A DNA stretch of 64,000 nt from Hydra vulgaris. Taxonomy: Eukaryota; Cnidaria; Hydrozoa; Anthoathecata; Hydridae. The stretch's first letter is position 1; every line of letters starts with the position of its first letter. The stretch covers positions 23,696,001 through 23,760,000 of the forward strand of contig NC_088920.1 of assembly GCF_038396675.1 (NCBI RefSeq). The letters run 5' to 3'. Of the stretch, positions 1-51,760 are shown one piece after another. The position numbers and the translations under genes are program-made. The notes under the pieces were generated by a model that was not told the DNA's origin, did not search any database, and saw only the letters and a list, made by a program, of their open reading frames with translations.

Positions 1-156
1 GTTTAGAGACAAAGTTCTTCAAGTTTTATTTATCACAAATTTCATTATTTGTACACGAAAATTATTAAATTAATCAAAAGTATTAAAAAAAGTTGATTTC
101 CTTTTGGACAAAACAAGTGCAACTCGACAAAATGTTGACCAAGCTGTATTTCGCTA

Positions 157-1182
157 TCAAAATTTCGTGGCGAATCCGTTGTTGTCGATCACAGCCTTGC
201 ATCTTCGAGGCATAGATTCGATCAGGTGATCAATGAAACTTTATGGAATCGCTGCCTAGGCCTTTTGGATTTGTTCAAACAGTTGATCCTTATTACGAAC
301 ACCTTCACGATTAATTCTGCGGTTGACGATCTCCCACAGGTTCTCGATAGGGTTGAGATCCGGAGATTAAGGCGGCCAATCCATCACCGATAGATTGTTG
401 GCTTGAAACCACTGCTTGACTACTTTTGCAGTGTGTTTCGGATCGTTATCTTGCTGAAAAACCCATTTTATTGGAATATTCCATTCAGCATGAGGTAACA
501 TAACATCTTTCAGGATATTTTTATACATGAAACGGTCCATTATTCCATCGTTTTGATGTATCAGACCTAGACCGTTAGCAGAAAAACACCCCATACCATT
601 ACATTGTCTCCACCATGCTTCACGGTCTTATGGCAGTAACGTAAATCGAGGCGTCTTCCGGCCAGTCGACGTACACGGCAAATGCCATCGCTCCCAATGA
701 TGTTGAACTTCGATTCATCACTGAACAGGACAGTTCGCCATTTCTGCACATTCCAGTCAATATGAGATGTAGCAAACAGGAATCTTTTCTTCTGGTTTTT
801 TAGTGAAATCAGCGGTTTCTTTGCAGGGCGTCGAGAAAACAATCCGGCTTCAACAGCACGTTGTCTGATTGTTCGGTCCAATACAGACAGCTCTAATTGC
901 TTTTGTATCTCGACTGATGATATCCAGGGATCCTTCTTGACGGATCTGACGATCATAGAATCCTCTCTAGAAGTGGTGGAACGCGGTCTTCCACCTTTGT
1001 TATCTGCTGCCAACTTCCCCGTAGAACGATATTTGGAACATAGCCTTGATACGGTCCATTTTTTCCACGCGATGTTTATCACAAATACTTTTTTGTGACA
1101 TTCCACTTACGTAATCGCCAATAATTTTCTTTCTTAGTTCCAATCCAAGACTGTCGAGAGCCATTTTTGCACTTAAAGTCAT
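157..1182 (-). pseudogene. Tc1-family transposase, frameshifted and with in-frame stops
   Basis: Cut-and-paste transposase of the Tc1/mariner superfamily. Three overlapping minus-strand frames carry successive parts: an N-terminal paired-like helix-turn-helix (1182-1085), then a GGRPRSTT hinge motif and the first catalytic Asp in VLFSDESKF (about 712-740), then FQQDNDPKH (about 440-470) and NPIENLW (about 330-350). Counting from the second Asp to the Glu gives 34 intervening residues, so the triad is DD34E. Visible damage includes a frame change near 1085, another near 590, a TAA just before SPDLNP (about 366-370), and further stops near the C-terminus; the natural stop is at 157-159. The start ATG chosen is at 1182; a second Met six codons on (MALDSLG) is equally likely and is typical of the family. 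Confidence 0.9.
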
Positions 1183-1417
1183 AAAAATAATAAAAATAAA
1201 TAATCACGCTTCTCAAGGCTTACCGTGTTACATTTACCTTGTGATGATACAATAATGCTCTGTGGAACACAACGTTGGTTGGATGTGGACTGTATTGATG
1301 TAATGAAACACTTGTTGTATTTCACTTCTTGTATTGATGCTCTTCGATAAAACACTTTGATAAAACTCACTTCGATAAACTGTCTTGATAATACTGACTG
1401 ATTGACTTCCATATACT

Positions 1418-1650
1418 GACTGAATTACATGTCGATTTACATGTCTCTTATATAGTAAAATGAATCTGTGTAAACCTGTTCTGGAAGATTCTAGATGCTT
1501 CTTTTCGATGCTTCTGGAAGCTTCTGGATGCGTCTGGATGCTTCTGAATGTTTCTGGATATTTCTGGATGCTACTGGATGCTTCCAGATGCTTCTTCTGG
1601 AAACTTTTGGAAGCTTCTGCATGCTTCTGGAAACTTCTGGATACTTCCTT
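1418..1650 (-). promoter_or_regulatory. Heat-shock-element array with TATA box and initiator upstream of the transposase
   Basis: Seen directly: alternating TTC/GAA pentamers in correct 2-nt phase. Perfect three-box sites lie at 1479-1491 (TTCtgGAAgaTTC), 1512-1524 (TTCtgGAAgcTTC) and 1625-1637 (TTCtgGAAacTTC, extending imperfectly to 1647); a five-box site with one mismatch lies at 1595-1617. On the minus strand, downstream of the array, is TATATAAG (1454-1447), and about 33 bp further a TCAGTC initiator (1423-1418). The order array, TATA, Inr, leader, ATG (1182) points at the transposase. The HSF site TTCnnGAAnnTTC is established; that the array drives this transposase is inference. Confidence 0.7.
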
Positions 1651-1928
1651 TAATTATTAAAAAACTTTCGTGACGTTGACATGGACCAGACTTAAGAAAA
1701 TGAAACAAACCAAAAAAGTTGCACTTGTTTTGTCTTTTGCAAAATGGCACTTGTCAACGAAATTCTGCCGGTGTGCTGTCACCTGATTGCTCATGTCATG
1801 GCATGCTACGACTCCAGACTCCTGAACTGTTTGTTGTGGTAGTATAGTTCGTTTCGTTTTTAAGACATGTTAAATTAGGAACACTTTTTAGCATTATTCG
1901 ATTTTGGTTGCAAATGTTTTGTCCAATA

Positions 1929-2125
<197 letters not shown>

Positions 2126-2214
2126 GTTTACGTTTACGTAAGTAAACGCAATAAATTGCTTTAATTGCGTTTGAGTTTGCGTGCGAGTTTTTATTTTGGA
2201 ACGCAAACGCAAAA

Positions 2215-2900
2215 AAGCAGTTTTACTTGCGTTCCAATGTATGGTTATAGGCATTAAAAACTGGTGTCACAGAAGAACGAGGTTCCTTCTCGAACACAAG
2301 TTTCAATACCTATAATGAAAAAGTTATTACACAGACAATATCTTTACCTAAAACTAAATAGGTCTTTATAGGTTGCATAGTAAATATTATTGCCCCCTTC
2401 TAAACGTTTTTTTTTTTGAATTTCCTATTTAGCTTCTAAAGGTCATTCCTTTTGAAAAAAAAGACTTTTCAATCCTACCCTATTGATGATATTTGCCTCA
2501 GGATAAACAACAATATGTTATATTAAAGTTGAATGAAGCAAAATAAGTAAATTTAAAAGTTTTTACATCAACATAGTTTCTTAGTTTTTAATAAGATAGC
2601 ATCGGCACATAGCTCCCAAGTGACCTGCGATTCGAGGGTTAGATCTGCAATGACTTTTAAAAACCCGCAGACCCGCAAAGGTATTTAAAAAACCCGCGAA
2701 AAAAAAGCTAAGTAAAAAAATCCACGAGGCATTTAAAAAAAATTAATTAATAATAAATAATAATTCACAGAAAATACAGTTAATTATGGATTTATAAAAT
2801 TAACTATATAATTAAATAATTAATTTATTTGTTATTAATAGTTTTAAAGATAAAAGTTTATTTTGGTTTCGATTGTACTAATTTGAAAATTTATTTTATC
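2215..2900. other. AT-rich intergenic DNA, nothing recognised
   Basis: No coding similarity, RNA gene or clear repeat was recognised here. A short GC-richer patch with repeated acccgc (about 2660-2700) is the only feature. Confidence 0.5.
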
Positions 2901-2901
2901 A

Positions 2902-3828
2902 ATGGCATCGAATGAATCAAAGAAAAGAAAGCTTTCATCTTGTTCTTTTAAACGTGCTTGGAGCACACTATTTTCTTTTATTCAGCCTAAAAAATTGATA
3001 ATGATAATGAATTCAAAGCTAAATGCACAGTAAGTATAAAAATGTAATTTCAATTTTGCTAACGTTTTTTATTGCCAAGTATTATTTTTAATATATAGAA
3101 ATTTCAATATAGACAATGTTATGTTAAAAAAAAAAGTTTTGCTACGATTTTTAATAAATAAAGTTAAGTTTAGATGCTTTTTTACTTATCACAATAAATT
3201 TTTAATAGGAGTTTAATATTAACTTTAGGCTGGTAACAGAATAATTTGATAATTGTTTTTTTATTTCAGATATGTGAATGTTGTTTCAATATTCACCACG
3301 AAGGGCTATTGGATATTACCAGACATATATGTGGTTTTCAGCATAGGAAGGCAGCTAAATATGTTGCATCAGCTAAACAAATCAGTTCTTTTTTTGCAAG
3401 TAGCACAACTGAAGTTAAATCTGTTAAAAATCCAGAAGTTTTATTTACTGGTTTTATTCTAGAACAAAATTTGTCATTTGAGTGCTTATCATATGCAGGT
3501 CCTCATTTTTCAGAAAAATGTTTCCTGACAGTAAAATAGCAACAAAGTATGGGTGTGCAGCAACAAAAACAGCACGTATCATTAATAATCCCATTGCTCC
3601 GTCATTGCATTCTTGTATTGTGGACCTTCTCAAAGCTGAACCATTTAGCCTTTCTGTTGATGGAAGCATTGATACAGGTACTAAAAGCATGTACCCACTT
3701 GTTGTGAAGATTTATAACATTAACAGTGGTGTAATCAGTTCTTAGTTTTGGAATATGGCTCTTTTCAGCGATTGTACAGCTGCAATAATTTTCCAAAAGG
3801 TGTCAGATATCTTTGAAAAAGAAAGCTG
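2902..3828 (+). pseudogene. hAT-type transposase relic (frameshifted)
   Basis: Resembles the N-terminal and central part of hAT-like or ZBED-like transposase proteins found in many animals. An opening exon-like stretch begins at ATG 2902 (basic, MASNESKKRK) and runs to a possible splice donor near 3030. The second block (3246-3539) reads DITRHICGFQHRKA and VLFTGFILEQNLSFE. Near 3490 the frame changes to one reading FRKMFPDSKIATKYGCA and FSLSVDGSIDTGTKSMYP, ending at a stop near 3745; a further in-frame piece after that stop continues to about 3828. Motifs such as MFPDSKIA..YGC.RTK and LS.DGS.DTG are characteristic of this protein group from memory. The catalytic C-terminal half is absent, replaced by a palindrome. 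Could be an old host ZBED-like gene rather than a mobile copy, but the breaks argue it is dead. Confidence 0.65.
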
Positions 3829-3863
3829 AATACTCTCAAAAATGCAACTGGTCCACAATTTAG

Positions 3864-3953
3864 TTTGTAGTTTTAAGTTGCTAAGTTCATCATGGTGTTA
3901 CCGCATAGCAATGCGGTAACACCATGATGAACTTAGCAACTTAAAACTACAAA
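3864..3953. repeat. Perfect palindrome, 43-bp arms, 4-nt loop
   Basis: Left arm 3864-3906, loop agca 3907-3910, right arm 3911-3953 with no mismatches. It directly follows the hAT relic. A perfect fold-back of this size with a four-base loop is most simply a recent inverted duplication, or a sequencing or assembly fold-back artefact. Confidence 0.95.
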
Positions 3954-4580
3954 TCACACAGCTTGTTTTAATTACGTTCCAGAAGAAAAGACTCTTGTCG
4001 CAGCTACAAAAGCTATAGTAGAGTACAATAACAAATAAATTCTTTAAATCTGATGTATATGTACAATTAATTCTTTAAATCTGATTTATAAAAATTTTTG
4101 CCACAAAACGCATGACCCTCTAGTGACTTTTAAAAAGTTGAGAGCTATGCATTGGATCTGTTTAATTTAAGTGATAAATCATTTATATGATATTTTCAGG
4201 TTAAGCTTTCGTCTATTTTTATTTTAAGATGTTTTATAAAGTTTTGAGGAATAAGTTTATTATTATTTATTTTAATCCTATATTTACTGTCTATATTATT
4301 GCACCTTGGTTTAAAAATTATTAGCTTTTATCACTATTAATTTTTGAGATCAAAGTTGACAAATTTGTTAATTTTTTAAATAGATTTGTTAATAGAATGA
4401 AGATTCATATCATCAGCAAAGTGTTGAACTCTGTAAAATTTAATAGCCTATGATGAATCATTTATAAAGATTATAAATAATAGTTGTTACAGTATAGACC
4501 GTTGCGGTACACTAACATTAATATCACAAATATCAGCATTTTTTCAAATTTTTTTTTTCCTCAACATCTTTGCTTCCAAC
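3954..4580. other. AT-rich DNA, no gene recognised
   Basis: Some possible continuation of the hAT relic just after the palindrome (VAATKAIVEYNN-like reading at about 3995-4035). A short repeat, ttaattctttaaatctgat, occurs twice at about 4035-4085. Otherwise unassigned. Confidence 0.4.
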
Positions 4581-4589
4581 AATGCTGCT

Positions 4590-4638
4590 AGCAACCACTA
4601 TTAGAGTTGGAAGTTACTGGAAGAGAAAAGATGAAGTT
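4590..4638. repeat. Left arm of a 49-bp inverted repeat pair (partner 6252-6300)
   Basis: This 49-bp sequence recurs in reverse complement at 6252-6300 with one mismatch, and weaker similarity continues inward for about 40 bp. The pair brackets a decayed LINE and an unidentified ORF, about 1.7 kb in all. It may be the ends of a larger element or an old inverted duplication. Confidence 0.85.
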
Positions 4639-4859
4639 TATAGAACAAGATAACAATTGACTATATGATACAATTTATAGAAGCAAATTCATTTCTATTA
4701 TTGAGAAATAATTTGTACTATAAGTTTGATATTTATGATATTGATATTAATTTTTATAATATCAAATTTTTACAATAATATATAATTTCATACAAAATAT
4801 TATTTTAATGTAAACTTTTAATAATAAAATTTTTAATATTAAATTTTTTGATATATAGT

Positions 4860-5490
4860 CATATTCCACTAATCACATCCTACCTGATATAGCCAACACA
4901 CAGGTTGATACATTGCTTGACATTAGAATCACTCCAGCTTCTGTATCTAAAGTCATTTTCTGCTTAGATTCTTTTGCAGCTTGTGGTTCGTACAACATAG
5001 CTTTTATAGTCTTGTAGAAGTGTTCTCTGGAGCTGTCGTCTATACTTTTAAAACTATTTAACAAGTGCTTATCAGAGTCTTGTTTTCCAGCCTGCTGGAA
5101 AAAGGCATCTGTTATCCTTATTAATTAATTATCCTTTATTTTAATTCTGGAGAGTAACCTGACTCGTCTAACTACCTGTCCCATTAGTCTTCTTCCTATC
5201 TTAAGCAAGTTTTTGAGTCTTTAATTAACAAACACTTATTATCTCATCTTGATTCTTATAACTTACTTTCTGAATATCAATGGATTTCGATCTTCTTGTT
5301 CTATTTGTGCTGATTCATAAATGGTAACAACTGATAGAAGCTCAAATTGTTAAATTTGAGCTTAAAAAGTTTCTGCTACAACATGGGGCTCTCAATGATT
5401 GGTGAACTTTAACACAGATAAAATTCAATTTTTTCAGCTTATCGTTATCACAATAATCTAGATCTTCACAATAATTCTAAGTCTTAGATT
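4860..5490 (+). pseudogene. Decayed non-LTR retrotransposon (LINE) reverse transcriptase fragment
   Basis: Plus-strand translation in shifting frames gives hallmark RT-region phrases of Jockey/CR1-type LINEs: DIRITPASVSKVI (from about 4920), LFNKCLSESCFPACWKKASV (about 5055-5115), PISLLPILSK (about 5180-5210), INKHLLSHLDSYNLLSEYQ (about 5227-5280), and near 5410-5440 a TDKIQFFQL-like piece. Multiple frameshifts and stops, and no palm YADD core, show a truncated dead copy. Minus-strand frames here are shadows. Confidence 0.7.
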
Positions 5491-5788
5491 TATGAAAGGT
5501 AATGTACATGATGAGTCATCTACCCTTACTCGTACTTCCAATTTACTTTTACTTCTAGATTTACTCTTACTTCCAATCTTTCTTGGAAACCATATATATG
5601 GGATTATCTTTTTCCGGATATTTCCTGAAGTCTGGATATTTTTCTCAACTTTCAGTTTTTCGGGATATCCAAAATATTTTCCATACAAGTTTAGGTATAT
5701 ATTTTTGTGATTTATTTGTTTTTTAAGCTTTTCCACTCATCACTCATACAAAAATAAAGAAAAGCATAGAAAAGAAATTGGAAACAAA

Positions 5789-6055
5789 TCAGCTAAAAGA
5801 AAATATTATCCAGATATTTTGTGTAAACAATTTTCTGGATTTTAAAATATGACCTGGATGATCTATGTATATCAAATCAATTGCAAAATTAACATCTGCC
5901 AAGGTTTTATCTCTATAAATCTCAAATCTGTCCCTGTAGGGAATACTGTTGCCATATCTGGAGAAGATCTTTGAATTATGTCCTTTCTCATTTAAACAAG
6001 GTGCAAAAAGGCATTGTAAACATAGTTGAACCTGCTCTTGCATCCAATCCTTCAA
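5789..6055 (-). other. Unidentified 88-codon open frame, repeat-derived?
   Basis: The minus frame contains a varied, non-low-complexity stretch (SRYGNSIPYRDRFEIYRDK, DVNFAIDLIYIDHPGHI) that looks like real protein rather than AT-rich noise. It lies inside the inverted-repeat pair 4590-4638/6252-6300, and translation continues upstream in broken frames toward 6250. I do not recognise the family; a transposon ORF is the likeliest origin. Confidence 0.3.
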
Positions 6056-13600: not shown

Positions 13601-16600
13601 GAAGCGTCAATCTTCCTTTTTTAAATATCAGCGTTATATTTGATTTTCTCCATAGATCTGGGACTTCTTCGGTTGTGATTGTTTTAATTGTGCAGCTGCT
13701 TTTGCCCCTCCAAGCGCTATTGGAGGGGCAAAAGCAGCTGCACAATTTTTCAAGATGCGTGAATAAATACTGTTGTAGCCCATTGATTTAGTTTCAACTA
13801 GATCTTTAAGCTGCGTTTCAACCTCTTTGCTTCTCGACTATGTCGTTTTCAAGAAGAGTACATTTGGATTCAGTTTGATTCATCATAACATCAAATACTG
13901 ACTGAAAAAGTTGTTCAATATTTTGCATATGACTATGTTTTCAGATGTAGTAGATCCGTCTAGCATTTAAGGTACCTGATAAAATCTTGAACACGTTGCT
14001 TGTTTTGCACATGTGCATGAAGAAGTGTTGGGTTGGTTTTTGATTCTCTCACAAGTTTCTCTTGTAAGTCAATATTGCCGACTTCATAAAAATGTTTGTT
14101 TAATCTATTATTACTATTTTGTTAATCATTGTTAATTTTTTTAATTGCACTGATTACTATTTATTTCTGATTTCCTATATTTATTATTTGTTCTTAAGGA
14201 GACATTAATTATTTCTATTATCATCAGTATTTTTGTTTTTTGTTTGTTATTGTTTGTTATTGTTTTTAATATTATTGTTTGTTAATATAGTTGTTATCAT
14301 AACTTTGTACTTGTTATTGTTGATTGTTACATCATTTTTTAACTGTTTGTGATTGTGTCTAATAAAGTTAAATAAATAAATATCAGTAACTTTGTAATCA
14401 TAAATAAAGATGATGAATAATTCTTTAACCATACTAACATTTCAGTAATAAGGCCCAATGAAAAAGCTCAACTTTGGACTTAGCTCCTTTTTAGAAAAAT
14501 GCTCTTCAATTGTAAGGGTTGAAGTTCAAATAAACAGAAGAGTACCAAAGTGAGTACTCACTTAAAATATTGTAAACTTTACAATATTTTAAGTGTGCTT
14601 TGTGCAATTAAGAGTCACACATAATTGAAGTCATTAACTTTAAAGCTGAGGCTTTAGTTTATAAAATTTGAAAATAAATTTGAAAATTTTTTGTTAAAAT
14701 CAATTATAACTGAGAAAATTTTAGTTTCACAAAACCCAAAAAGCCGCTGTGTTTGCTTGGTTGCAAATTGTCTGGCGCCTGTTTGTGTCGCGACCCACGG
14801 CTTGGGAACCACTGTTATCATAACATTTAGTTATTTAATGTCTGTTAGTATTTTTAAACTAGACTAGTATTACTCATATTTAAAGTGCTGATATTTTTTT
14901 CTTTAAAGAAATGTTTTGTGATATCGAAAAATCTTAATATAGTTGATAATCAAATGAAGGATTGGGTCTTATTGTTAAACTTTGATAAAACAGGAGGTGT
15001 TGTAAAACGATTTTGGGTGTGAAAATTTTAAATGCAATTTGGCACCACCACCACCTTCTTATCTCTCACATACAATTAAGCACAAAAGATTAGTTATGTA
15101 CATGACTCTGATTTTTAAAAAATTTATGAAAATCTTTTATATGTTTAAATACTATGCTTGAAATAAATGGATTTAAAAAAAAAAAGATAAATTTAACAGT
15201 AGAGTAAAAAAGTCTTTTTAAATATTTATAATTTTTTTTTAGTTAAAGAACACAAAATATTTCAGAGACGACAGGTTGGATTGGTAGTTTCTGTCCTTCT
15301 TTTTATTTTGTGTTTTTCCTTGTTTAGCTCATATTTTTACTTGAGGTAATAGCATTACAAATTTTTTATTTATTTTACTATGTTTATTTATGTTGCAAGT
15401 GTTTATCAATGTTGCAACTTTATATTTCAAGTGTTAATTTATGCTTCAAATGTTAATTTATGCTACAAATGTTAATTTATGCTACATGTGTTTATTATTA
15501 TACTATTTTTGTTTATTAAATGTTTCTTTTGTTTTTTTAATATAAAAATGTTTATAGCGCATTGAAAATATTTAAGAAATCAAATAATAGCAGCGAAGTT
15601 AAACTTTCTCCTGTCGATAAATCAGAAAATTTAACTTGCAACTCTGGATTCAATGGATTTAAATCAAGATTGGTGCTAATTTTCTTTTAATTTATTTTAT
15701 ATTTTTTTATGAAAATAAAAAGAATGAATAAAATATGTTATTAAAATTTTGTTGAATATTTTATTCAGGTTCAACGATCTTTCGCTAGAGACATTTCGAT
15801 TGTAAAGGAAGTTGGTCGGGGTTGCTTTAGTGTTGTATACATTGGGTTATATCAAAGCCAAACTCTTGCAGTGAAAATTGTTGACGAATCTGATGAATAC
15901 TCTTGGCAGAGAGAGCAACATTTCTATACAACTCGAAATCTAGGCCACGAGAACATACTTGGTTTTATTGGTGCCGATATTGTTGAAAGAGGCACGGTTA
16001 TTAGGGTCTTAGTTACACAGTATCACCCTTTTGGATCTCTTTATAATTTTTTGCGAATTCATTCATATGATTTCAAAATTTTTTTTCGCCTTTTATATTC
16101 GTCTGTTTGCGGCATATGTTATCTCCACAACTCTATAAGTGGCTTGTATGGTAAACCAGCAATAGCTCATCGAGATATTTCTAGTAAAAATATTCTTGTT
16201 AAAGATAACTTAGAATGTTGCATCAGTGATTTTGCACTTGCCGTTGAAGAAAATCCTGATGAATTCAATCTAGTTCCATCAAAGGCGAAACTTCCTAATC
16301 CAAGATATATGGCACCTGAAGTTCTTGAGAATCCTTCTTGTCGTAATCAGACAGTCTTTTTCTATCAAAAAGCAGATATGTATTCTTTCAGCTTAGTCAT
16401 GTGGGAAATATTACTGAGATACGAGATAAAAGGTATTTTTTTAAGTTTCATTTTAAAACTTAAGATTTAAACTGAAACCCTATTTTACTGAAAACTTCCT
16501 ATTTCTATTTGCTCTTTATTTTTTGAGTATATTTTTGAGTATATTGATACATTTATATTATTTGATGTCTAAATGAGTTTCAATATTAACAATTATTCAG

Positions 16601-24968: not shown

Positions 24969-25190
24969 ATACTTACCTGACTGGGAAAGAAATCTGATCC
25001 TTAAGGGGTTTCTCCACAAGGCAATTAGCTGGCGGAGAATAAACCACGATACCATCCTTAAGGGGTTTCTTCCAGAGTGAGGCTTGAGCATTGCACATCG
25101 CTCAAGGCTGACCTCTGCGATTACCGCTAACGTCGGTAACTCGACAGTATAATTTCTGGTAGCGGAAACCTGCGTACGCGCTCGTTTCCT
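24969..25190 (+). ncRNA. U1: U1 snRNA gene copy with 57-nt insertion in stem-loop I
   Basis: Spliceosomal U1 RNA, which pairs with 5' splice sites. It begins ATACTTACCTG, the exact splice-site-recognition end, and contains attgcac (U1A loop II core), ctgacctctgcgatt, the Sm site aatttctgg at 25151-25159 and a final gcgtacgc hairpin. Compared with copy 2 (165 nt) this copy is 222 nt: 57 extra bases lie in stem-loop I, bounded by a 17-bp direct repeat atccttaaggggtttct (24997-25013 and 25054-25070). The insertion disrupts the U1-70K loop region. Outside it the two copies are nearly identical. It may be a variant U1 or a pseudogene. Confidence 0.9.
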
Positions 25191-28704: not shown

Positions 28705-29244
28705 ATGAGTGAAACATTAGCTGACTGTCTGAATGCTGTTGTTAGTGTAATTAAAATATTAGAGCGCATAATGCACAATAGACTTTACAACTATCTGGTA
28801 AATTACCACCTGCTAAATAATAACCAATATGGTTTTCAAAAACACCATTCAACAGAACACGCTGTAGCCAAACTTGTCAGCGAAATTTTAAATGGGTTTG
28901 ACAACAATAAATACACTCTTGGGATTTTTCTCGATCTTTTAAAAGCGTTTGACACAGTTGACCACGAGATTCTTCTTTATAAACTGTATAATTATGGAAT
29001 AAGAAATAACAATTTAAAATGGTTTTGCTCCTACCTTAATAATCGGAAACAAGCTTTATCATATAACAATACTATAATACGACTTGAAAACATTACTTGT
29101 GGGGTTCCACAAGGATCAATTCTTGGTCCATTGTTATTCCTCGTTTACATTAATGATATCTACTTATCTTCTAACATATTTAACTTTGTTCTTTTTGCTG
29201 ATGATACGCAAGTATTCTTTAGCCACACAAACATTAGCCTATAA
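28705..29244 (+). pseudogene. LINE reverse transcriptase domain (179 codons, then stop)
   Basis: RNA-directed DNA polymerase of a non-LTR retrotransposon. Visible motifs in order: ERIMHNRLYNYLVNYHLLN, NQYGFQKHHSTEHAV, the first catalytic Asp in IFLDLLKAFDTVDH, CGVPQGSILGPLLFLVYIND, and LFADDTQVF (FADD, positions about 29193-29215). It ends at a TAA after HTNISL; downstream in-frame continuation (VNQELENLNKWFKAKKLSLN) shows that this stop is a mutation. C-terminal pieces follow at 29455-30005 (YISYCNVIWAS, CRGSRLWSAAVMEL). There is no endonuclease upstream, so the copy is 5'-truncated. Confidence 0.9.
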
Positions 29245-35590: not shown

Positions 35591-35755
35591 AGGAAGCGAG
35601 CGCGTACGCAGGCTTCCGCTACCAGAAATTATACTGTCGAGTTACCGACGTTAGCGGTAATCGCAGAGGTCAGCCTTGAGCGATGTGCAATGCTCAAGCC
35701 TCACTCTGGAAGAAACCCCTTGTGGATCAGATTTCTTTCCCAGTCAGGTAAGTAT
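35591..35755 (-). ncRNA. U1: U1 snRNA gene, copy 2 (standard length)
   Basis: Minus-strand 165-nt U1, matching the usual metazoan length (about 164). The 5' end is ATACTTACCTGAC; loop I region gatccacaagg; loop II attgcac; then ctgacctctgcgattaccg, the Sm site aatttctgg (minus of 35622-35630) and a terminal hairpin with gcgtacgc. It has compensating-looking stems (gggaaagaaat with gtttcttcc). It lacks the insertion of copy 1 and is the better candidate for the functional gene. It points toward copy 1, 10.4 kb away, in convergent orientation. Confidence 0.95.
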
Positions 35756-51688: not shown

Positions 51689-51760
51689 AGGTCCCACCGA
51701 GATTTGAACTCGGATCGCAAGATTCAGAGTCTTGAGTGCTAACCATTACACCATGGAACC
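51689..51760 (-). tRNA. trnQ-CUG: tRNA-Gln (CTG)
   Basis: A 72-nt gene read from 51760 to 51689. The 5' end ggttccatggtgtaatggtt is the canonical animal tRNA-Gln start; the anticodon loop is actctgaat with anticodon CTG (minus of 51725-51727); the T arm is cgagttcaaatctcg. Acceptor stem pairs GGTTCCA with TGGGACC, one T:G wobble (most animal genes have TGGAACC). A TTTTT Pol III terminator follows about nine bases downstream (minus of 51676-51680). No intron. Confidence 0.95.

Follow-up and report, generated by a model that had tools for sequence, protein, structure and literature searches.

A candidate heat-shock-type promoter within a young, many-copy Tc1-type transposon of Hydra vulgaris

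Introduction

Transposons are already known to spread heat shock elements (HSEs), worm Helitrons and plant LTR elements being the examples. In the sections of Garrigues et al. 2019 drawn on here, Caenorhabditis Helitrons account for 61.4% of the HSEs of C. elegans (11,527/18,766) in a motif scan, and HSF-1 and Pol II occupancy at HSE-bearing Helitrons is reported together with induction of nearby genes (PMC6927752). In Brassicaceae, heat activation was measured for ONSEN/COPIA78 and other heat-responsive COPIA elements, whose LTR has a gap site in addition to a 4P site; the strong 4P site is said, in the part of that work used here, to arise by duplication of an nTTCnnGAAn proto-site (PMC5059998). 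Tc1/mariner elements of C. elegans carry the motifs of other factors, such as LSL-1, and the excerpts considered here tie HSF-1 sites to Helitrons (PMC8896005). The promoters of the Tc1-like elements Bari1 and Bari3 are characterized, in the portion of the source relied on, as blurry, being AT-rich with weak core motifs (PMC6446368).

Here we describe a Tc1-type element of Hydra vulgaris, located in a 64-kb stretch of DNA that we analysed as a whole (hereafter, the window), which carries a tandem array of HSEs. Compared with the Caenorhabditis Helitrons as they appear in the same sections of PMC6927752, it is likewise a DNA transposon with clustered, partly tandem HSEs that make up a large share of the host's HSEs; unlike them, it is of the Tc1 class, has the array in its own presumed transposase promoter and is known from sequence alone, and unlike the 61.4% obtained by motif scan, its share was counted over perfect five-box sites only. 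Like ONSEN/COPIA78, as far as the part of PMC5059998 used here describes it, the element has HSF-type sites in its own promoter region, and the proto-site of the former resembles the 10-bp unit of the latter; unlike that plant LTR retrotransposon, with its 4P and gap site, the Hydra element has an array of ~16 units. It is like the C. elegans Tc1/mariner elements in being a carrier of factor binding sites near genes (excerpts of PMC8896005), and like Bari1 and Bari3 in having a promoter within a Tc1-like element, differing from the latter two in its TATA box, initiator-like motif and HSE array (portion of PMC6446368).

Our preferred reading, to which we assign a probability of roughly 0.6, is that the array belongs to an HSF-responsive transposase promoter of heat-shock type in a young, many-copy Tc1 transposon. 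Among the open-licence PMC papers that our searches listed, we found no earlier report of a Tc1 element with an HSE promoter in Hydra.

Results

The transposon copy in the window

The element occupies positions 1..1931 of the window on the minus strand. Its 5' end is at 1931; the 3' end falls outside, ~98 bp before the window begins. The 5' end, TACAGTATTGG..., lies against a (TA)n tract, and the outer terminal inverted repeat on this side is CAGTATTGGACAAAACATTTGCAACC (1906..1931, minus strand). The 5' terminus TACAGTATTGGACAAAAC was exact in 11/26 copies with the 5' end examined, nearly matched in 14 and absent in one (L030); the 3' terminus, ...GTTGCACTCGTTTTGTCC[AG]ATACTG followed by TA, was seen in the window copy (L002) and in L018, L020 and L030, these being only the copies that matched the pattern used or were examined. 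An inner repeat, GACAAAACAAGTGCAACT, occurs on the 5' side at 1717..1734 (minus strand), as an 18/18 inverted match to its 3' counterpart at 107..124 (plus strand). A reading of the latter as the left end of the transposon was rejected, as the element runs past the window start; the copies stay similar beyond this repeat. The (TA)n tract abutting the 5' end measures ~190 bp (window 1932-2124), and several other copies adjoin TA tracts.

A transposase remnant with frame breaks and stops fills 157..1182 (minus strand), and its piece 570-1106 contains the HTH_Tnp_Tc3_2 domain (PF01498; 63.9 bits). A relative, P0001, which matches this piece at 91% over 90%, bears both PF01498 and DDE_3, and at a cut-off of E <= 0.01 it matches a single PDB sequence, the catalytic domain of Sleeping Beauty SB100X (5cr4; E 1.1e-57). 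Relatives of the piece include protein records named Hydra vulgaris, and a GC content of 28.6% likewise points to Hydra; no relative was confirmed in viral contigs, where L001 is a single 18-mer match, and none in prokaryote genomes. The distance from the second D to E in P0001 is 34 residues (QQDND...PIEN; counted by eye and in the relative, the window copy being frame-broken), and a D-to-E spacing of 34 residues is the defining mark of the DD34E group.

Sleeping Beauty has two repeats per end. The Hydra element is like it in this respect and in its catalytic domain by sequence (PDB 5cr4), and unlike it in its host and in the HSE array in its promoter. An earlier, sequence-only reading of this DNA had called the element a Tc1 transposon, and the Tc1 transposase domains, the inverted repeats flanked by TA and the Sleeping Beauty match of the relative bear this out, placing it in Tc1/mariner. 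Judged by its sequence, the window element belongs to a young Tc1-type transposon with many copies and is itself decayed.

Elsewhere in the window lie an inverted repeat whose two arms, 44 bases each and differing by at most one mismatch, enclose a 4-base loop (3863-3954), a protein kinase piece (15874-16470, plus strand; PK_Tyr_Ser-Thr, E 4.2e-24), two U1 snRNA matches (25021-25190, plus strand, 98.7 bits; 35591-35755, minus strand, 135.9 bits), a reverse transcriptase piece (28705-29241, plus strand) and a tRNA (51689-51760, minus strand).

Layout of the array and the presumed core promoter

The tandem array lies at 1479..1647 on the minus strand (169 bp, period 10, 16.3 copies of the unit TTCTGGATGC, 73% matches by TRF). 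Downstream of its end follow, at 24 bp, a TATA box, TATATAAG (1447..1454, minus strand; exact in 28/40 covering copies), and, at 55 bp, an initiator-like TCAGTC (1418..1423, minus strand; exact in 35/42 copies), whose A at 1421 is the presumed start. As the sequence-only reading had it, array, TATA box and TCAGTC all point at the Tc1-type transposase (broken in this copy), and 33 bp separate the first T of the TATA box from the A of this first TCAGTC; a second TCAGTC occurs at 1401-1396 on the minus strand. The presumed 5' leader, placed from the reading frames, extends to the first ATG of the transposase frame (1183..1421, minus strand), and the best matches of a 261-base leader/core piece were 94-100% identical in 30 copies.

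Perfect TTCnnGAAnnTTC sites occur exactly three times in the 64-kb window, each time inside the array (1479-1491, 1512-1524 and 1625-1637), and GAAnnTTCnnGAA has no match on the plus strand of the window; the number of three-box sites of either form expected per 64 kb is 0.7 +/- 0.7 (first-order Markov simulation of the window, 20 simulations). This agrees with the claim, made previously, of at least three perfect sites in an array of about 170 bp. The five-box site claimed along with them is nowhere perfect in the window copy, which has three imperfect ones with one wrong base each (1625-1647, 1595-1617 and 1479-1501).

The perfect three-box HSE nearest the promoter, GAATCTTCCAGAA (1479..1491, minus strand), lies 24 bp upstream of TATATAAG and has its boxes intact in 29/39 covering copies; the next, GAAGCTTCCAGAA (1512..1524, minus strand), covers -70 to -57 relative to the first base of TATATAAG and has them intact in 30/38. 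At 1595..1617 (minus strand) the wrong base of the window copy is in the third box (AAA), and the matching majority five-box site is intact in 25/39 covering copies. The perfect three-box site at 1625-1637 sits within a five-box site at 1625..1647 (minus strand) that has a single wrong base (ATC); the majority distal five-box site, whose column match to this interval is approximate because the unit number differs among copies there, is intact in 15/35 covering copies. Two marks of a heat-shock-type promoter are thus present, namely an unbroken run of at least three inverted nGAAn boxes close to the core promoter and a TATA box followed downstream by a start-site motif in the proper order (the order only, the start site being presumed).

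When the 10-bp units were permuted by column, the resulting arrays contained on average 3.7 three-box sites (P(3 or more) = 0.78), and when the consensus unit received random substitutions at the observed rate, 0.23 such sites arose (P = 0.0055). The three-box sites are therefore explained by the array and its base make-up, so that the real question is the origin of the array; since the permuted array is as rich in these sites, the window alone cannot separate a heat-shock array from a lucky minisatellite. The latter would be a plain minisatellite resembling HSEs, in which a TTCTGGATGC-type 10-bp repeat of the master copy was amplified with the element and has no role in heat. We consider this account unlikely, although the richness of permuted arrays speaks for it, as does the description of gap- and step-type HSE arrangements as weak in the parts of PMC4552642 and PMC5059998 drawn on. 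A TTCnnGAA unit, on the other hand, is not required of a neutral repeat, and column 8, which is A in 5/15 units of exactly ten bases (yielding TTCTGGAA or similar), departs from its consensus T to A in five cases out of five, each time creating GAA.

The location of the array raises another alternative. Subterminal repeats bind transposase in some DNA transposons, and the array, just inside the inner repeat at 1717-1734 and ~280 bp from the 5' end, could be a set of binding repeats for the element's own transposase, its likeness to HSEs being accidental. This seems improbable to us: the repeat pairs at both ends (GACAAAACAAGTGCAACT, CAGTATTGGACAAAAC) differ in sequence from the array, and a tandem repeat search of window positions 1-6000 found no such array on the 3' side inside the window.

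The array across genomic copies

A DNA query blind to the array (1311 bases of leader and transposase) gave 1456 candidates in the 911.5-Mb genome of 15 contigs. We scored the best 40, which are 93-100% identical, include the window copy and are the least diverged, older and more diverged copies, possibly array-less, being unrepresented. A perfect three-box HSE was present in 38/40 of these best-scoring copies, and a perfect five- or seven-box chain in 22/40. At 30 of these loci, the three-box HSE fell within 330 bp 5' of the TATA position in 29/30 and a five- or seven-box chain did so in 17/30; the other ten, represented by stretches of 600-800 bp, gave 9/10 and 5/10, respectively. Of the two copies without a three-box HSE, L011 has had the array, next to its TATA box on the 5' side, replaced by foreign sequence, and in L072 the element match begins only at query base 194. 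In 18/30 copies a three-box site spanned -37 to -24 relative to the TATA position, and in 14/30 it lay exactly 24 bp ahead of an exact TATATAAG. Since 38/40 array-blind copies carry a three-box HSE, the array is not a local minisatellite, and we rejected that origin; the condition that the sequence-only reading had named as its refutation, other copies without the array, thus does not hold for these copies. The replacement DNA in L011, ~25 bp 5' of its TATA box, contains repeats of CACGGCCGTATCCATTCATG type and is apparently another insertion or a rearrangement.

Among 60 loci (L002-L061), 13 duplicated the array segment of another locus and five that lacked one array flank were left out (L011, L012, L044, L050 and L052), giving 42 distinct arrays recovered between their flanks, the window copy included (27 found array-blind and 15 via a five-box site). 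Each holds 2-10 three-box matches, and seven-box chains occur in 5/42 (1/27 of the array-blind and 4/15 of the five-box-found arrays). The majority sequence of the 42 copies contains perfect sites of both sizes, two with five boxes and two with three; neither five-box site is intact in the window copy. This majority argues against a minisatellite without a heat role, as does the fact that, in most of the copies examined, a TATA box and an initiator-like motif follow shortly after the array; the variation in unit number among copies is in its favour. Relative to the window array, length differed by an exact multiple of 10 in 30/42 arrays (the window's own included) and otherwise in 12/42. It counts against the preferred reading of an HSF-responsive promoter that these 12 lengths misfit whole 10-bp steps and that a 10-bp array of such make-up yields three-box HSEs by itself.

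The array and leader frame, used as a protein query, matched seven protein records that are translations of other copies, Hydra vulgaris LOC124814402 among them; these records are a separate source, perhaps of the same species. All seven retain the core promoter and some or all of the leader, and 6/7 an array of varying make-up, P0126 having just the promoter-proximal array end. In P0002, found in the transposase search, the frame reads through an array, and a protein search with another array frame gave no match.

Divergence and age of the copies

Divergence among copies was 3.7% in HSE boxes (71/1923), 4.3% in in-site spacers (41/964) and 3.7% at other positions (257/6919; Fisher tests: boxes vs spacers, P 0.48; boxes vs other positions, P 1.0), as measured with CpG positions left out in a MAFFT alignment that is approximate for a tandem array. 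Among the box bases, T and C varied more than their counterparts outside boxes, and A varied less. Boxes thus diverge at the spacer rate in this 42-copy alignment, in which purifying selection on boxes among copies is unsupported, and because they are conserved no better than spacers, selection after insertion is unsupported as well. The equal rates of boxes and spacers count against the preferred reading and suit the minisatellite. Neutral decay following a recent burst would be the simplest reading of these figures, and it is silent on the source copies. Mean divergence from the majority was 2.4% over the 1.3-kb leader/transposase region (30 copies), and one frame with both HTH and DDE marker motifs was found in 2/30 copies, a lower bound, which also speaks against the preferred reading; the two lie ~11 kb apart on the same contig.

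Genome-wide share of five-box HSEs

The perfect five-box HSE TTCnnGAAnnTTCnnGAAnnTTC has 2342 matches in the genome compared with 22 for the reversed control, a figure that covers both strands and counts a seven-box site more than once. With the element's own spacers (TTCTGGAARCTTCTGGAARCTTC), there were 1575 matches in the genome and 0 for the control. Flanks were checked for 42 stretches representing 30 distinct places, of which 27 belong to the Tc1 element and the other 3 to a second repeat family: the first 30 five-box matches listed (18 distinct places) were inside the Tc1 element in 30/30 cases, and 12 further stretches, picked for untypical-looking spacers, split into 9 in the Tc1 element and 3 (L062, L063 and L097) in the second family. 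Among 100 five-box matches listed, which are the first on contig 1 and so a non-random sample, 7 at 3 loci have foreign spacers by eye and 66 recur as exact element-spacer matches. HSEs are thus enriched in the element relative to the genome when perfect five-box sites only are counted, and most such sites in the genome look like the Tc1 element's own. The suggestion that copies of the transposon spread HSEs fits these counts, the family holding many perfect five-box HSEs and 27/30 checked places.

The second, older repeat family (L062:640-1240, L063:1010-1573, L074-L077 and L097; contigs 1, 3 and 14) has runs of six or seven consecutive perfect HSE boxes in L062 (= L074), L063, L076 and L077, with L075 limited to three-box sites; CTTTTATA (TATAAAAG on the minus strand) occurs near the HSE cluster in L063 and L077. 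L062 and L063 are 77% alike over 610 columns, and the best 40 of 255 genome candidates, which were scored, consist of 39 at 77-83% plus the query itself. Around the HSE cluster no match to the Tc1 element was found, and three 60-residue pieces of nearby frames had no Pfam match.

Host HSF and hsp70 genes

The HSF DNA-binding domain (PF00447) is found at 5 places in the genome, 3 of them nearly full-length and without a stop. Nine hsp70 upstream regions (985 bp before the ATG) were examined, six of them distinct, as three pairs are identical. A perfect three-box HSE was absent from 8/9 of these 985-bp regions (5/6 distinct), and the remaining one has such a site at -312 to -299 from the ATG. 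In the five distinct regions lacking one, the best three-box site from -400 to -60 carries a single wrong base and does not clearly stand out against shuffled sequence (P 0.07-0.16); two four-box sites in these regions do so (P 0.02 and 0.04), and GAAAAATCnAGAA, at about -320 to -360 and common to 4/5 of them, may be a working, looser HSE.

It follows from the 8/9 regions that perfect HSEs are not simply this host's hsp70 layout, and that host HSF may act mostly via looser sites. The hsp promoter architecture claimed for the element accordingly stood in part: HSE boxes, TATA box and initiator are there in order, and likeness to the same host's hsp70 promoters was not found. The comparison is a point against the preferred reading, which we take as a caution and not a refutation.

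Animal hsp promoters have parts and spacing similar to the HSEs, TATA box, initiator and long leader of the element, and these might all have been captured together from a host or foreign hsp gene. Such a capture strikes us as highly improbable: the array-masked element gave no BLAST match (E <= 0.001) in the nine hsp70 upstream regions of the same genome, and these regions have no comparable HSEs.

The hsp70 genes (L081-L089; contigs 1, 10, 11 and 12) include three opposite-orientation pairs ~10-19 kb apart, two on contig 12 and one on contig 10. Within each pair the 1201-bp upstream stretches are 100% identical, whether by gene conversion, recent duplication or an assembly effect.

Discussion

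Under the preferred reading of an HSF-responsive transposase promoter, the order of parts in the family, from the 5' end inverted repeat, HSE array, TATATAAG, TCAGTC initiator, leader and transposase, would work as follows. Heat or proteotoxic stress would lead trimers of the host HSF to bind the array and would raise transcription from the TCAGTC start; the resulting pulse of transposase would make the element jump, and every jump would take the array along. The array unit of 10 bp would correspond to two HSF pentamers and about one helical turn. As ten bases equal two pentamers, gain or loss of whole units, inferred from this geometry, would preserve the register, so that slippage or unequal exchange could add or remove units with the register kept and five-box sites could grow to seven-box sites. 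The sequences themselves show the anatomy, the array throughout the scored copies, length change mostly by whole units, the large share of the genome's perfect five-box sites and the HSF genes; binding by HSF, induction by heat, its coupling to transposition and the way in which the array grew are steps that we infer.

A broader scenario, which we regard as doubtful, is that this heat-wired Tc1 element spread its array in heat-driven bursts and now supplies most of the strong HSF sites of the genome, that it has turned neighbouring host genes heat-responsive, in a host whose own hsp70 genes are weak-sited, and that the second, older family did likewise earlier.

If true, a cnidarian Tc1 element whose transposase is preceded by a multi-site HSE promoter would add another independent case of HSEs spread by transposons, in another superfamily and another animal phylum. 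The copies are young and numerous, so that its predictions, heat-induced transposase RNA and heat-responsive neighbours, would be open to ordinary RNA-seq.
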